64,000 bases of DNA from Sphingomonas ginkgonis. Its GTDB lineage: Bacteria; Pseudomonadota; Alphaproteobacteria; Sphingomonadales; Sphingomonadaceae. Under the pieces are notes generated by a model. That model was not told the origin of the DNA. It was given only the letters and a program-made list of their open reading frames with translations, and did no database searches. Shown in pieces: positions 23,932 to 28,776 of the stretch. Every line of letters starts with the position of its first letter. Position 1 is the first letter of the stretch. The position numbers and the translations under genes were made by a program. The stretch covers positions 676,501-740,500 of the forward strand of contig NZ_RWJF01000001.1 in NCBI RefSeq assembly GCF_003970925.1, read 5' to 3'.

Positions 23932-24426
23932 TTAGAGGCTGGCGGTCAGGTTCGCGAGGCGATCGCACAGGCTGCGGCCGCTCCCCGACAGCGTCTTGAG
24001 CAGCTCACGCGCATCGGCCTGGTCGATCGCGCCGGTTTCAACCGAATGGCGCGTCGCCGCCGAGCGGAAACGATAGCGCCACAGCCAGCGACCCTTCTGA
24101 TCGAACCAGATCGATCCGGTCGAATGAACGATGGCGTTGCGGAGCTTAAGCGGTGCGCGAAGGTCGAGCAGCGCGGCCAGGCATTTCTTGGCGACGGCGG
24201 ACGGATGGTCCGCCAGAGCTTCCTCCAGCGCCGCCAGCCGAGCCCCGAAGGTCGCCGGATTATGCGTCTGGAGGTTCTTGGCGACCATCGCCTCCATGAC
24301 CTCGAAGCTCGCCTGCTCCACCCGGGCGAACCAGTCGAGGCAATGGCCGCGCCAGCAATTGATCTCGTCCGTGGCCTGCCGGTGCTGCTCCTGCGGCATG
24401 ATGCTGATGCGCTGAAGCTCGGTCAT
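23932..24426 (-). CDS. hypothetical protein with HEPN-like motif
   Basis: 164 residues, mostly helical. The central stretch LDLRAPLKLRNAIVHSTG contains R-N-x3-H, the RX4H signature of HEPN ribonuclease and toxin domains, in a suitable position after a long helix. The preceding helices (FARVEQASFEVMEAMVAKNLQ and ARLAALEEALADHP) are consistent with a HEPN bundle. ATG 24426 is preferred over the TTG ten codons earlier; neither has a strong ribosome site. It sits near the reverse-transcriptase island, separated by the GFA gene. Function is inferred only. Confidence 0.55.
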   Translation of the reverse strand: MTELQRISIMPQEQHRQATDEINCWRGHCLDWFARVEQASFEVMEAMVAKNLQTHNPATFGARLAALEEALADHPSAVAKKCLAALLDLRAPLKLRNAIVHSTGSIWFDQKGRWLWRYRFRSAATRHSVETGAIDQADARELLKTLSGSGRSLCDRLANLTASL

Positions 24427-24546
24427 CGCCGGCGTCGTAACGGCAAGGACTTGCAAAGCGGTTAGCGCGCGCCTCTGCGTCTCTGCGCGAGGATATGCGT
24501 GCTATTGTCGCTGCCGGGAAACAGTCGCAGCAGGAGGAGCGCGAGG

Positions 24547-24993
24547 ATGGAGCGGGTGACGCGGGGCGGGTGCCTGTGCGGGGCGGTGCGGGTGGAGGCG
24601 CGGGGCGAGCCCAAGCGGGTGGGGCTGTGCCACTGCCTCGACTGCCGCAAACATCATGGCGCGCTGTTCTTCGCCGCGGCGATCTTCGCCGCCGAGGCGG
24701 TGAGCGTCAGCGGTGAGACGCGGGCGTGGAGCAAGCCGGCCGCGGACCCGGAGGCGCCGCACGCCTCCGGCGCGCGACACTTCTGCCCCACCTGCGGCTC
24801 GTCGCTGTTCGGGCGGTGGGGGGAGGAGGTGGACCTCCACCTCGGCACCCTCGACGCGCCCGACCAGTTCCGGCCGAGCTACGAGCTGTGGACGGTGCGG
24901 CGGGAGGAATGGCTGCCGGATTTCGGGCTGGAGGGGTTCGAGGGGGATCGGCCTTGCATGAACGAACAATCACCCCGCCCCGGGTCAAGCTAG
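24547..24993 (+). CDS. GFA family protein (glutathione-dependent formaldehyde-activating-like)
   Basis: 148 residues. The GFA zinc ligands are visible: GGCLCGAV (CxC), CHCLDCRKHHG (CxxC with upstream Cys) and HFCPTCGSSLF. ATG at 24547 follows GCGAGG. Most members are glutathione-binding, cysteine-rich proteins without proven formaldehyde chemistry. The last residues (NEQSPRPGSS) look unconserved and overlap the 3' end of the convergent reverse transcriptase by nine bases, so the native end may have been altered when the island arrived. Confidence 0.87.
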   Translation: MERVTRGGCLCGAVRVEARGEPKRVGLCHCLDCRKHHGALFFAAAIFAAEAVSVSGETRAWSKPAADPEAPHASGARHFCPTCGSSLFGRWGEEVDLHLGTLDAPDQFRPSYELWTVRREEWLPDFGLEGFEGDRPCMNEQSPRPGSS

Positions 24994-26466
24994 CGATGGC
25001 ATGAACGCGACCCCGTTATTGCTTAGAACCTTGAATATCCCGGTCTCGTCCGCAACAGTCTTAAGATAACCGCAACGATAAAGCTCGTAAGTTAACATCC
25101 AATATCGGTGACGATCATGGATGTCTGGCGCACCTATTATGCGCCGAGCAAAGGGCAAGATTGCCTTTCTCTGACCAGTGTCCGAAAACCGAAAAGCTGT
25201 CAAAATCGCGAGGCAGTCAAGACTTTCAACGCATTTGCGCACTGTTTCGTCCGGCAGTGAGCCGCCGATCAAGTCAATATAATACATAGCCCAGCAGGCA
25301 AGATCCGTGCGATCACGTGAAACACTGTCCTCGAGGATCGAGAGTAGTTTCTCTTGAAGTATCAATCGACCTGACCGATTTGCTGCGTTTAGCATAAACG
25401 GGAGTAGGGCCGGAACGATCGAAGGAAACCTCGATACAAGTAATAAGCCATACTCAACCACAACGCTATCTGTCCAATAGTGCCTATCCTTACTTGCGAG
25501 TGCGCGATAGGCATACTTCAAGCCGTTCGGATCACCTGAGATCTCGAATAGAAGCAGTGCGAAGTCAATAAAGTCGACGGCTGCTCCCGGCCTTACCGGC
25601 TCATCTAAAACCCGTATTTTCCGTCGTATCTGCAGGACCCAGTCAGGGGACACAGAATGCGGTAGGTCGGAAAAGCGCGTTTTGGAGTGATTTAAAGTCA
25701 GTTTGAATTTAGCAAGCGCGCGTTCTAAATCGCGAACAAACCGACGCGCCTCCTCGATAGTTGTGCAGAATGCCGTGTAGTCGTCTATATAACGATGAAA
25801 GAGGTAGCCCTTTAGATCTTCGTCCACTTTCTCCAAAACAATCTCGGCGAATATGTTGGACGTTCCCGGTCCAACGGCTATTCCATTAGTTTCACGTCTT
25901 TTGCAGAATTGAAGCGCGTTATCTAGGTCGTTGTACCATAGCGGCTGCTTTATAGTCGACTTGGCAGTCTTTATTCCTACAAGTGCCCACGGTATCGAAT
26001 GTGTGTACAAGCTACCAAAAAAGTTCGCGATGTCTGCCTTAACTAAGACTTTTGCGCCGAAGCTCTCACGGATATGTCCTAGTGTTCTAGTCTGCCATTC
26101 TCCGTAGTTCATCACCACAATTCGGCCGTCCGGGTGGCGCCGTGGTCTGATCCGGCTCTTGGTATTGTGACAGATGTGCTCCAGGCCGGCCCAATGGGCG
26201 TGGATCAGATCAACGAGTCGCCCATATGCTGATGGATGCGGAATTGACGTAATGCGAAGCTGTCCGTCGGCGCGAGTTTGGCCAAGCTCCACGGAGTCAT
26301 AGCCTGGCTTCGGGTTTGAGTTTGGCGCACCTGCGAATTGACCTACGATTGTAAGAGTCAAATCTTGCGACGTGAGCAGTGGGGGCAACTCATCCGCGCT
26401 TTTACGTTGCCTCGGAAGGTAGTTCGCCTGCAGTAGCGAGGTTGCAGCGGCTTGAGCGGTAAGCAG
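24985..26466 (-). CDS. Abi/UG-type reverse transcriptase, candidate antiphage RT
   Basis: 493 residues if translation starts at CTG 26466. An N-terminal motif NYLPRQRKSADELPPLLTS resembles the ELPP-x-FT block of Abi-like RTs. Polymerase motifs follow: A, VLVKADIANFFGSLYTHSIPWAL; B, GIAVGPGTSNIFAEIVLE; C, HRYIDDYTAF with the catalytic YIDD; D, KLTLNHSKTRF. The last 220 residues are helical, as in UG/Abi RTs whose C-terminal repeats replace RNase H or maturase domains. Base composition is far lower in GC than neighbours, indicating transfer. AGGAG lies five bases before the CTG; the first conventional start, TTG 26388, falls inside the ELPP motif. Preceded by a small winged-helix gene. No maturase, integrase or retron RNA is seen, so defence is more likely than mobility. 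Confidence 0.85.
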   Translation of the reverse strand: MLTAQAAATSLLQANYLPRQRKSADELPPLLTSQDLTLTIVGQFAGAPNSNPKPGYDSVELGQTRADGQLRITSIPHPSAYGRLVDLIHAHWAGLEHICHNTKSRIRPRRHPDGRIVVMNYGEWQTRTLGHIRESFGAKVLVKADIANFFGSLYTHSIPWALVGIKTAKSTIKQPLWYNDLDNALQFCKRRETNGIAVGPGTSNIFAEIVLEKVDEDLKGYLFHRYIDDYTAFCTTIEEARRFVRDLERALAKFKLTLNHSKTRFSDLPHSVSPDWVLQIRRKIRVLDEPVRPGAAVDFIDFALLLFEISGDPNGLKYAYRALASKDRHYWTDSVVVEYGLLLVSRFPSIVPALLPFMLNAANRSGRLILQEKLLSILEDSVSRDRTDLACWAMYYIDLIGGSLPDETVRKCVESLDCLAILTAFRFSDTGQRKAILPFARRIIGAPDIHDRHRYWMLTYELYRCGYLKTVADETGIFKVLSNNGVAFMPSLA

Positions 26467-26490
26467 AAAGACTCCTATCTGGAACTCGGC

Positions 26491-26724
26491 CTAAAGCAAA
26501 AACCAAGTGCGGCCTGCACCTTTCTTTCTAAGCTTTCCCTCCATTTGTAACTGCTGGCCAGCCCACCTCATCGCATACTGCCAAGTGTAAAAGAGGTTCC
26601 CGGAAGAACGAAGTTCCGCTTCGTGATTGTCCCAGATGTGCTTTGCAATCTGCGGTACCGTGGCTGGGCCGCTGCTCTGAAGTGCATCGACGACCCACAC
26701 TTTCAGGTCGGAACTTGTTGCCAT
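26491..26724 (-). CDS. small winged-helix DNA-binding protein paired with the RT
   Basis: 77 residues from ATG 26724, with TTGGAG seven bases upstream. The layout VWVVDALQSSGPATVPQIAKHIWD, then SSGNLFYTWQYAMRWAGQQLQ and a C-terminal GKLRKKGAGRTWFLL is that of a winged helix with a beta-hairpin wing. It lies upstream of the RT on the same strand and in the same reading frame, separated by one TAG stop and 24 bases to the proposed RT start. It may be a repressor or sensor for the RT. A run of 12 C residues lies 24 bases upstream of the ATG. Confidence 0.75.
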   Translation of the reverse strand: MATSSDLKVWVVDALQSSGPATVPQIAKHIWDNHEAELRSSGNLFYTWQYAMRWAGQQLQMEGKLRKKGAGRTWFLL

Positions 26725-26747
26725 TGAGTTCTCCAATTAGACAGAGC

Positions 26748-26759
26748 GGGGGGGGGGGG
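26748..26759 (-). repeat. homopolymer: 12 C residues upstream of the winged-helix/RT genes
   Basis: Twelve consecutive G on the plus strand (C on the minus strand) start 24 bases before the winged-helix ATG. The run lies where core promoter spacing or the 5' leader would be. Long homopolymers slip during replication and often drive on/off expression. It marks the right boundary of the AT-rich island. Confidence 0.85.
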
Positions 26760-26803
26760 CGGCGGAACTTACTTTAGCTCCTTAAGGGGTCGTGGCAGAG
26801 TAG

Positions 26804-27877
26804 TCACTCCGCCGCCACCCCGGCGGCCGAGAACATGTCCCCGTCGCTCGCGCCGTCTCCGGACGCCGCTTCCGCCGCGTCGTTGGCAACGCCGGCCTTG
26901 GCCTTCTGGCGGCGGTCGAAATTGTCCCAGACCTGGTTCCAGTTCCCGCGCGTGGCGGCCTTGCTGTACTCGGTCGCGCGGGTCTCGAAGAAGTTGGCGT
27001 GCTCGACGCCGTTCAAGAGCGGGGCGAGCCAGGGGAGCGGGTGCTCGTCGACCATGTAGATCGGCTTCAGGCCGAGCTGGCCGAGGCGCCAGTCGGCGAT
27101 GTAGCGGATATACTTCTTGATCGCCTTGGGGGTCATTCCCTCGACCGGACCCATCTCGAACGCGAGGTCGATGAAATTGTCCTCGAGCCGGACGGTCTTC
27201 TGGCAGGCGTCGATGATGTCGTCCTGGACCGAGCGGGTGAGGCAGTCGCGCTCCTTGACGAAGGCGTGGAAGAGGCGGGTGATGCCCTCGCAGTGGAGGC
27301 TCTCGTCGCGGACCGACCAGCTGACGATCTGCCCCATGCCCTTCATCTTGTTGAAGCGCGGGAAGTTCATCAGCATCGCGAAGCTGGCGAACAGCTGCAG
27401 CCCCTCGGTGAAGCCGCCGAACATGGCGAGCGTCTTGGCGATGTCCTCGTCGGTGTCGACGCCGAAGGTCGAGAGATAGTCGTGCTTGTCCTTCATCTCC
27501 TTGTACTGGAGGAAGGCGCTGTATTCGCTCTCGGGCATGCCGATCGTGTCGAGGAGGTGCGAGTAGGCGGCGATGTGCACCGTCTCCATGTTGGAGAAGG
27601 CGGTCAGCATCATCTTGATTTCGGTCGGCTTGAACACGCGGCCGTACTTGTCGTGGTAGCAGTCCTGCACCTCGACGTCGGCCTGGGTGAAGAAGCGGAA
27701 GATCTGGGTGAGGAGGTTGCGCTCGTGCGGGGAGAGCTTCTGCGCCCAGTCGCGGCAGTCCTCGCCCAAGGGCACTTCCTCGGGCATCCAGTGGATCTGC
27801 TGCTGGCGCTTCCAGTACTCGAACGCCCAGGGATATTCGAACGGCTTGTAGGTCTTGGAGGCTTGGAGGAGGGGCAT
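26804..27877 (-). CDS. nrdB: NrdB, class I ribonucleotide reductase beta subunit
   Basis: 357 residues. All metal ligands and the radical Tyr fit the NrdB pattern: Asp67, Glu98 and His101 in NMETVHIAAY, Tyr105 as the radical residue, a second Glu in GFTEGLQLF and Glu/His in RDESLHCEG. It provides the diiron-tyrosyl cofactor for NrdA, making dNTPs. The tail (GDGASDGDMFSAAG) is Asp-rich and lacks the typical conserved end. nrdA is not in the window. It starts three bases after the preceding small membrane-protein gene, so it shares an operon with a PepSY-type gene set. Confidence 0.96.
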   Translation of the reverse strand: MPLLQASKTYKPFEYPWAFEYWKRQQQIHWMPEEVPLGEDCRDWAQKLSPHERNLLTQIFRFFTQADVEVQDCYHDKYGRVFKPTEIKMMLTAFSNMETVHIAAYSHLLDTIGMPESEYSAFLQYKEMKDKHDYLSTFGVDTDEDIAKTLAMFGGFTEGLQLFASFAMLMNFPRFNKMKGMGQIVSWSVRDESLHCEGITRLFHAFVKERDCLTRSVQDDIIDACQKTVRLEDNFIDLAFEMGPVEGMTPKAIKKYIRYIADWRLGQLGLKPIYMVDEHPLPWLAPLLNGVEHANFFETRATEYSKAATRGNWNQVWDNFDRRQKAKAGVANDAAEAASGDGASDGDMFSAAGVAAE

Positions 27878-27880
27878 GGA

Positions 27881-28237
27881 TTAGGCTCCTTTGAGCGAGA
27901 TGAAGGCGGCGGCGGTAAGGACGGCGGCGACGACGAGGGTGGTGAGCGCGATGGCCTTGCGGTTTTTCGCGCGCTGCTCCTCGGTATCGAGGCGGGGCAG
28001 CTCCTCGCGGCGGGAATAGACCAGGAGCTGGCCGATCAGCATCGGAAAGACGCCCGGCGCCTTGCGGAAGGCGGCGAAGGCGGGGAGCCCGGCCGCGCCG
28101 GCGAGCTGGGCGAGGAACAGCGCGACGCCGACGACGAACAGCGCGACTCCGGTCCACTGGACCCAGTTGAACGGGCGCAGCGGCTTGCCCTGAACGGTCG
28201 CGGCAAGCGGATCGTAGCTGGACTGGCGGTAGGTCAC
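27881..28237 (-). CDS. small two- to three-helix membrane protein
   Basis: 118 residues starting at GTG 28237 with GGGAGG before it. Helices at about residues 27-50, 60-75 (weak) and 95-112, with charged loops (YSRREELPRLDTEEQRAKNRK). No family is recognised. The GTG overlaps the stop of the upstream 76-residue gene by four bases, and its own stop is three bases before nrdB, showing tight operon packing. Confidence 0.65.
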   Translation of the reverse strand: MTYRQSSYDPLAATVQGKPLRPFNWVQWTGVALFVVGVALFLAQLAGAAGLPAFAAFRKAPGVFPMLIGQLLVYSRREELPRLDTEEQRAKNRKAIALTTLVVAAVLTAAAFISLKGA

Positions 28238-28464
28238 CGCACCTCCCCCGTGCTGTTGAAGTCGTAGGGCTTGGTCGTGGCGTAGGCGATCGCGAAGCCG
28301 GCGAGGATGAGGCCGAAGGCGGCGGCCATGGTGCCGGCGATGAGCAGGGCTTCGCCGCGCTTCTCGTCGGTCTTGCGCGCGGCGATGCCGAGGCCGAGCG
28401 CGGCGAGCCCGCCGAGCAGCATCAGCGCGCCGAACACGACGAACAGGATGTTGGCGCCGCTCAC
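28234..28464 (-). CDS. small two-helix membrane protein
   Basis: 76 residues with two glycine/alanine-rich helices (ILFVVFGALMLLGGLAALGLG and LLIAGTMAAAFGLILAGFAIA) joined by a charged loop ARKTDEKRGE. Probable inner-membrane hairpin. Function unknown. Its stop overlaps the next gene's GTG start by four bases, and it follows the lipoprotein gene by three bases. Confidence 0.65.
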   Translation of the reverse strand: MSGANILFVVFGALMLLGGLAALGLGIAARKTDEKRGEALLIAGTMAAAFGLILAGFAIAYATTKPYDFNSTGEVR

Positions 28465-28467
28465 CGC

Positions 28468-28776
28468 TCACCGCTCGCGGACCCGGACGATGCGATCGCG
28501 GGTCACGACATGGCCCTTGCGCGCGCCAACCCCGAACACGACGATGCCGAGGAAATAGCCGAAGTCGTACCAGCCGCCGTCGTTGGGAACGGCGTAGATG
28601 GCGGCGCGAGGGTCGAACAGGCTGATCACCCAGGCGACCGGGAAGATGAAGCCGTGCCACAGGCCGAGCAGGAAGCCCGGCGCGCCCGGCGCGACCGCGC
28701 TCGCCGCCTCGCGTGCGCAGGCGGCGAGGAGGAGCGCGGGGGCCAAGAGGGCGAGCGGGGCGGCGCGGCGGCTCAT
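28468..28776 (-). CDS. small lipoprotein with two hydrophobic segments
   Basis: 102 residues. A lipobox LLAAC puts the lipidated Cys at residue 20. The remainder has FLLGLWHGFIFPVAWVISLFDPRAAIYAVPNDGGWYDFGYFLGIVVFG, resembling small conserved proteins annotated only as hypothetical. Its start overlaps the PepSY gene stop by four bases (ATGA), so the two are translationally coupled. Confidence 0.7.
   Translation of the reverse strand: MSRRAAPLALLAPALLLAACAREAASAVAPGAPGFLLGLWHGFIFPVAWVISLFDPRAAIYAVPNDGGWYDFGYFLGIVVFGVGARKGHVVTRDRIVRVRER

Follow-up and report, generated by a model that had tools for sequence, protein, structure and literature searches.

A divergent DRT4-type reverse transcriptase in a variable gene slot behind nrdB of Sphingomonas ginkgonis

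AbiK and Abi-P2 are described as carrying out protein-primed, untemplated synthesis, with AbiK priming from Tyr44, located in a loop (PMC9508834). DRT4 is presented as a single-gene, untemplated, tyrosine-primed polymerase, whose random single-stranded DNA becomes toxic once the phage protein ORF55 protects its end (PMC13213688, PMC13314766; reviews). A DRT4 hexamer is mentioned in a source that also assigns DRT3b (UG8) to the class 1 UG reverse transcriptases (PMC13174585), and phage ribonucleotide reductase genes are mutated in escapers of DRT9 (PMC12483538). In this study, we describe a reverse transcriptase (RT) gene of Sphingomonas ginkgonis located at 24985-26466 on the minus strand of a 64,000-nucleotide stretch of contig NZ_RWJF01000001.1 (hereafter the window). 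It lies with a small winged-helix (WH) gene in an AT-rich island behind nrdB. We consider it quite likely that nrdB and a GFA-family gene bound a swap-in slot, of which this island is one filling. On this reading, the main cargo of the island would be a DRT4-type polymerase from a distinct lineage that works as a single gene, and the WH gene would be cargo of the slot in its own right; both genes, on the strand of nrdB, would be transcribed with it, and the RT would be translated weakly from a CTG start codon.

The RT combines a palm carrying the catalytic YxDD motif, here YIDD (25780-25791, minus strand; translation RYIDDY), with a helical C-terminal domain, as read from its sequence and from an AlphaFold model (predicted local distance difference test, pLDDT, 83.9). 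Two PADLOC Drt4 models match it over nearly its whole length (2.2e-154 and 1.2e-131; 513 and 438 bits), and the next named type is Drt6 (5.5e-78, 261 bits). The model superposes on the UG15 entry 9l9s and the DRT4 entry 9vdv with a template modelling (TM) score of 0.89; over 9l9s, 9vdv and 9vdo the scores are 0.88-0.89 at 30-31% identity. A sequence search against solved structures returned the UG15 entry 21ou among the best relatives. The likeness to DRT4 (UG15) extends over the whole sequence and the predicted fold, including the YIDD motif and the helical C-terminal domain. However, the RT has 493 residues from its proposed start, and its match ends at residue 504 of the 540 of 21ou, whose last ~36 residues are absent from it. 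It also has a lineage of its own, lacks a canonical start codon and sits at nrdB. The NCBIfam model NF041749 (Drt4) gives it 427.8 bits against an equivalog cut-off of 450, and because of this score we call it a divergent DRT4 lineage and not an equivalog by NCBIfam. Judged by sequence, the RT is a divergent DRT4 (UG15); it is new to a defence family that is already known, to which it adds a separate lineage and whose chemistry was only just described.

A sequence-only reading of the same stretch had noticed an RT with YIDD and an ELPP-type motif, and both lie in the open minus-strand frame from 26490 to 24985 (RYIDDY and DELPP). It had assigned this protein to the Abi/UG class of defence RTs with a helical C-terminal domain, an assignment that is supported, the group II intron and retron models scoring far lower. 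Its statement that the system could not be matched to a described DRT type has to be given up in view of the PADLOC match (2.2e-154), the structural superposition (TM 0.89) and the tree described below.

DRT6 has a related fold (TM 0.81 to the RT) but scores 261 bits against 513 for Drt4, and a grouping with it is disfavoured in the tree (p-AU of the approximately unbiased test 0.021). AbiK, Abi-P2 and AbiA share the combination of an RT with a helical domain but are only 13-19% identical to the RT over the fold match, with TM scores to the RT model of 0.65-0.69 for AbiK and 0.60 or less for Abi-P2. DRT3b (UG8), alike in being a class 1 UG RT (PMC13174585), matches at 124 bits and in the palm only. 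Group II intron and retron identities were rejected: the models of these RTs give 45 and 33 bits where the NCBIfam Drt4 model gives 428, and the respective structures superpose poorly. So was an identity as a diversity-generating retroelement (DGR): DGR RT structures reach TM 0.29-0.35, and a repeat search of 24000-27200 found no pair readable as DGR template and variable repeats, in agreement with the earlier reading. Nor did Rfam yield a match up to E 0.1 over 24000-28500, though an undescribed RNA could escape Rfam; that reading had likewise reported no retron-like RNA.

Two trees were built. The first had 42 rows and left the fork between the lineage of the RT and DRT4 open. The second was then rebuilt on 27 rows: the tested group was named once the first tree had been seen, and the rows to be omitted (among them fragments, near copies, P0044, G218, P0023 and P0024) were chosen by us. 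In the second tree, the RT, P0004, the DRT4 of genome G083, P0006 and P0007 form one lineage (support 100/99), which joins 14 DRT4-type rows as their sister at 99/98. Forcing these five rows together with seven DRT6-like rows gave the p-AU of 0.021; PADLOC models were run on two of these seven rows only, and Drt4 and Drt6 nearly tie there. P0035, also Drt4 by PADLOC, stands on a long branch outside the 19-row group. The phylogenetic placement proposed as a check by the sequence-only reading has, in the second tree, put the RT with DRT4 and apart from DRT6.

At E 1e-40 or better, DRT4 genes were found in two of 397 genomes of the family (the window's genome and G083) and in three of 296 genomes of the order (the same two and G218). 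The G083 gene is 45% identical to the RT, has a GTG start and begins 390 bp after nrdB, without a WH gene. Since the DRT4s of the window and of G083 are at nrdB and that of G218 is not, two of the three DRT4s of the order share the nrdB slot. In genome G161 a DRT4-like gene is split into two pieces that lie in different frames. At the limits used, plasmids held one distant DRT4 and phages none; on viral contigs, 17 loci encode relatives of the RT, five of them over most of its length. Among 61 genomes of the genus, 56 have some match to a 4.2-kb island query, and for the RT portion of this query the only match is in the window's genome; up to four candidates were scored per genome, which weakens this absence, and the protein searches agree with it.

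The island itself is sharply delimited, as the sequence-only reading had stated. Its GC content is 0.48-0.54 over ~25,000-26,750, against 0.66-0.72 in the adjoining 500-base windows, with values of 0.506 for the RT, 0.526 for the WH gene, 0.638 for nrdB and 0.697 for the whole window. On the minus strand, nrdB is followed by a run of twelve C, the WH gene and the RT frame. One flank is the gene at 26804-27877 (minus strand) for the small subunit of class I ribonucleotide reductase, which from its sequence we take to be nrdB. The other is a GFA-family gene (24547-24993, plus strand; Pfam GFA 6.5e-26), convergent with the RT and overlapping its frame by 9 bases.

In relatives, nrdB was matched at E 1e-60 in 289 of the 296 genomes of the order, and up to 6 kb after it was surveyed in 80 genomes of Sphingomonadaceae, mostly those with the most similar nrdB. 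The tallies leave aside G207 and G145, which had been chosen as holders of the WH gene, the loci L035, L037 and L043, and the window itself. In successive 400-bp bins after nrdB, GC was below 0.55 in 39/78, 43/78, 38/78, 25/77, 11/77 and 1/77 loci, then in 0/76 in each of the next three bins (2.4-3.6 kb) and in 1-3/76 in each bin beyond. In 52 of the 78 family genomes, GC fell below 0.55 in one or more of the five bins nearest to nrdB. By a fixed GC rule, an island (mean GC 0.506) lies behind nrdB in 53 of the 78, a count that includes at least one false island (L218, with open reading frames, ORFs, that look housekeeping-like by eye). In the genus of the window the count is 19 of 21, or 20 of 23 when the window and L037 (G170, same genus, no island by the rule) are included. 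Of 20 further loci sought outside the family, one was from the family and one too short, which left 18: none of eight high-GC relatives from the class has a bin below 0.55, and nine of the 18 have mid or low GC along their whole length, so that the measure is uninformative there. The GFA-family gene recurs 1.5-2.9 kb beyond nrdB in G190, G555, G580 and G581, and a comparison of the DNA between the two genes in these four genomes and the window found no similarity at 1e-5. Between the same flanks lie a Schlafen AlbA_2 gene in G555, DUF4145 and PemK-like toxin genes in G581 and a DUF3800 gene in G190.

The slot behind nrdB is filled with different, often defence-like, genes in many relatives. 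Islands were defined by the GC rule and their longest open frames, which gave 90 ORFs of at least 100 residues; 15 were dropped by eye beforehand and 75 were scanned. At 1e-8 or better, these matched 236 PADLOC families, a number that overstates the number of genes, since one ORF can match many families. Among control ORFs from the same loci, at least 3 kb downstream, one of 61 matched one PADLOC family; the controls, obtained from 61 of the 78 loci, were picked for high GC at third codon positions and a length of at least 150 residues and were not matched in composition. The 25 of the 236 PADLOC matches that were listed include Drt2, BstA, the Pycsar protein PycC, ThsB, PD-T7-4 and type II methyltransferases, and the 25 of 39 Pfam families listed include BglII, NaeI, AIPR, GmrSD_N, TIR_2 and PycTM. 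No recombinase family is among these 25 of 39 Pfam families, and no search was aimed at recombinases. In another genome of the window's genus (L164), a DRT2 occupies the slot (PADLOC 3.2e-129). In addition, 30 of the 51 islands with an ORF of at least 100 residues were scanned singly in locus order (L183 not by its longest ORF): 15 of the 30 ORFs match PADLOC at 1e-5 and nine at 1e-8. Since half of these islands match defence models, new systems may be sought in the half that carry no label. Islands without a PADLOC match, in the range L145-L224, could hold systems that are as yet undescribed.

Defence hotspots flanked by core genes are known from bacterial chromosomes and combine fixed flanks with variable defence cargo. 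The slot resembles them in its common flanks, its differing cargo and its enrichment in defence families, and differs in being anchored at the nrdB stop codon. None of the open-licence papers returned by literature searches for a slot behind nrdB describes one, judged by title and the start of the abstract. We regard the slot as mattering more than the RT: it provides one fixed address, findable from nrdB alone, for defence genes of sphingomonads.

Co-directional ORFs of at least 100 residues are present in 47 islands, and in nine of these the first ATG of the first such ORF is 4-18 bases past the nrdB stop. When ATG, GTG and TTG are counted, 21 of the 47 have a possible start at bases 3-18; this is an upper bound, as the first such codon past the nrdB stop was taken and seven of the 21 frames are open more than 60 bases into nrdB. 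Moreover, in two of 84 loci part of the nrdB 3' end occurs a second time, just before the cargo: L215 at ~144-287 bp and L195 at 322-444 bp after the nrdB stop, with 48 and 41 residues aligned. As a lead, these tail duplicates would fit an exchange of cargo together with the nrdB tail. It is tempting to speculate, and we do so tentatively, that the site is a clade-specific, recombinase-free defence slot 3' of nrdB in Sphingomonadaceae, where recombination in the nrdB 3' end swaps unrelated defence genes and so hitches newcomers to the nrdB promoter and sometimes to its translation. If true, such hitching would tie the dose of defence genes to nucleotide synthesis, and the DNA-making DRT4 and DRT2 to their substrate. 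The address at a nucleotide reductase offers a testable link between the supply of deoxynucleoside triphosphates and DNA-making defences.

Several observations weigh against our interpretation of the RT and its slot. The RT scores 22 bits under the NCBIfam Drt4 cut-off, and its gene, having no canonical start codon, could be cryptic. The first tree left open the fork that joins its lineage to DRT4, and the DRT4 mechanism is taken from reviews. As to the slot, the DRT4 of G218 lies far from its nrdB, L250, from beyond the family, also has the look of an island, a family genome added later (G005, L239) is without one, and 15 of the 30 islands scanned singly have no PADLOC match at 1e-5.

By homology with DRT4, the RT would form a homohexamer and synthesize single-stranded DNA without a template, starting from one of its own tyrosines; it would harm the infected cell once a phage DNA-binding protein protects this DNA. 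How the protein is made is less evident. The RT frame follows the WH stop codon in register and stays open from 26490 to 24985, and neither ATG, GTG nor TTG occurs between this stop and the ELPP motif, the first such codon being the TTG for the Leu of ELPP itself. In an alignment of the RT with 12 relatives, the Met of P0004 (493 residues) stands opposite a CTG at 26464-26466, and a Shine-Dalgarno-like AGGAG (26472-26476) precedes this CTG by 5 nt. For these two reasons, the likely start of the RT, as far as the nucleotide sequence indicates, is this CTG, 24 nt past the WH stop, from which translation is probably weak and would yield 493 codons plus the stop. The WH and RT genes share the strand of nrdB and are probably co-transcribed with it. 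A search for sigma-70-like promoters within the island found none, against 1.4 expected.

The main rival to a weak CTG start is a lost one. An insertion or point change could have removed the start codon and left a cryptic or decaying RT that is hardly made, a possibility to which the missing ATG, GTG and TTG codons lend weight, as does the gene call in the protein database, which for the window's genome covers only a 375-residue piece (P0002). Against decay stand the frame, open for 501 codons, and the 76 columns invariant in ten or more of the 12 relatives, from none of which the RT departs; the AGGAG in front of a CTG aligned with a relative's Met also speaks for a functional start. Loss of the start is thus rather unlikely. 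P0003, the relative with the longest 65% match to the RT, has been called only from an internal Met, and at its 5' end, too, a canonical start may be missing.

The WH gene (26491-26724, minus strand) runs from an ATG at 26724 to a TAG stop at 26493-26491, in frame with the RT. Its 77 codons agree with the 77-residue winged-helix protein that the sequence-only reading had placed upstream of the RT, and its AlphaFold model (three helices and two strands, pLDDT 93) is a confident winged helix. The same reading took the two genes for a two-gene defence unit, and if they were one, the WH protein could repress the RT, or sense phage DNA and release it. The genes do lie on one strand with 24 nt from the WH stop to the proposed CTG, and both are AT-rich, a composition that decides neither for joint nor for separate arrival. 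The proposed recurrence of the WH gene beside related RTs was, however, not observed. WH relatives (74 proteins at E up to 1, all 74 of them candidates and including the window's own) are encoded at 113 places in genome contigs, and in the best 80 of these, with up to 6 kb on each side, tblastn with the RT (1e-3) found no match; conversely, no WH match lies within ~7 kb of the DRT4s of G083 and G218, a small set of neighbourhoods. Moreover, the WH gene precedes other cargo in other genomes, TIR-like in G207 and DUF4160/DUF2442-like in G065 (names given by eye). A regular partnership was rejected on these grounds, and a genuine two-gene unit appears improbable. Both outcomes that the sequence-only reading had held to count against it can be addressed: the RT does not fall within introns, retrons or DGRs, and the lack of the WH gene beside related RTs is largely what was found. 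The WH protein does not look like the regular partner of the RT but like a member of a separate, Mrr_N-like family, and what links the two genes is the nrdB site. A single WH-RT protein of ~580 residues made by read-through of the one TAG between the two frames is very improbable indeed, since their common register has a one-in-three chance and a Shine-Dalgarno-like site lies between the genes. In searches not aimed at fusions, and in one case with a length limit that hides them, DRT4-type matches, some of which could include a WH part, reach 559 residues.

As independent cargo of the slot, the WH protein would perhaps be a DNA-binding regulator. No solved structure matches it at E 0.001 or better, and it has no Pfam match itself, Mrr_N included. 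Mrr_N (PF14338) is a winged helix, and weak matches to it occur in nine of 30 members of the WH family (best E 7.8e-4); in contrast, the WH protein stands alone at 77 residues. Among the best 80 of the 113 WH loci, nrdB is present in six, all of them among the seven closest. A WH match was obtained in nine of the 296 genomes of the order. In five of the nine (the window's genome, G065, G145, G170 and G207), the gene follows nrdB at a distance of no more than 0.5 kb, with a TAG interrupting its frame in G170, whereas the remaining four do not have it next to nrdB; the neighbourhoods of G261 and G295 were seen in part.

Between nrdB and the WH gene, the run of twelve C (26748-26759, minus strand) may vary in length and could thereby alter spacing or expression. 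Among the best 80 of the 113 WH loci, groups with shared neighbours (names read by eye) comprise ten loci with an aldehyde-dehydrogenase-like gene, eight with a dihydropyrimidinase-like gene and ten with a Vsr-like endonuclease. In the first of these groups (L053, L054, L056, L058, L062, L069, L072, L084, L087 and L101), the WH homologue has a fixed place beside its neighbour, as if it were vertically inherited there. In the last group (L066, L074, L088, L094, L095, L099, L106, L107, L112 and L118), it lies within ~2.5 kb of the endonuclease gene, which suggests a role of WH homologues in restriction-modification.

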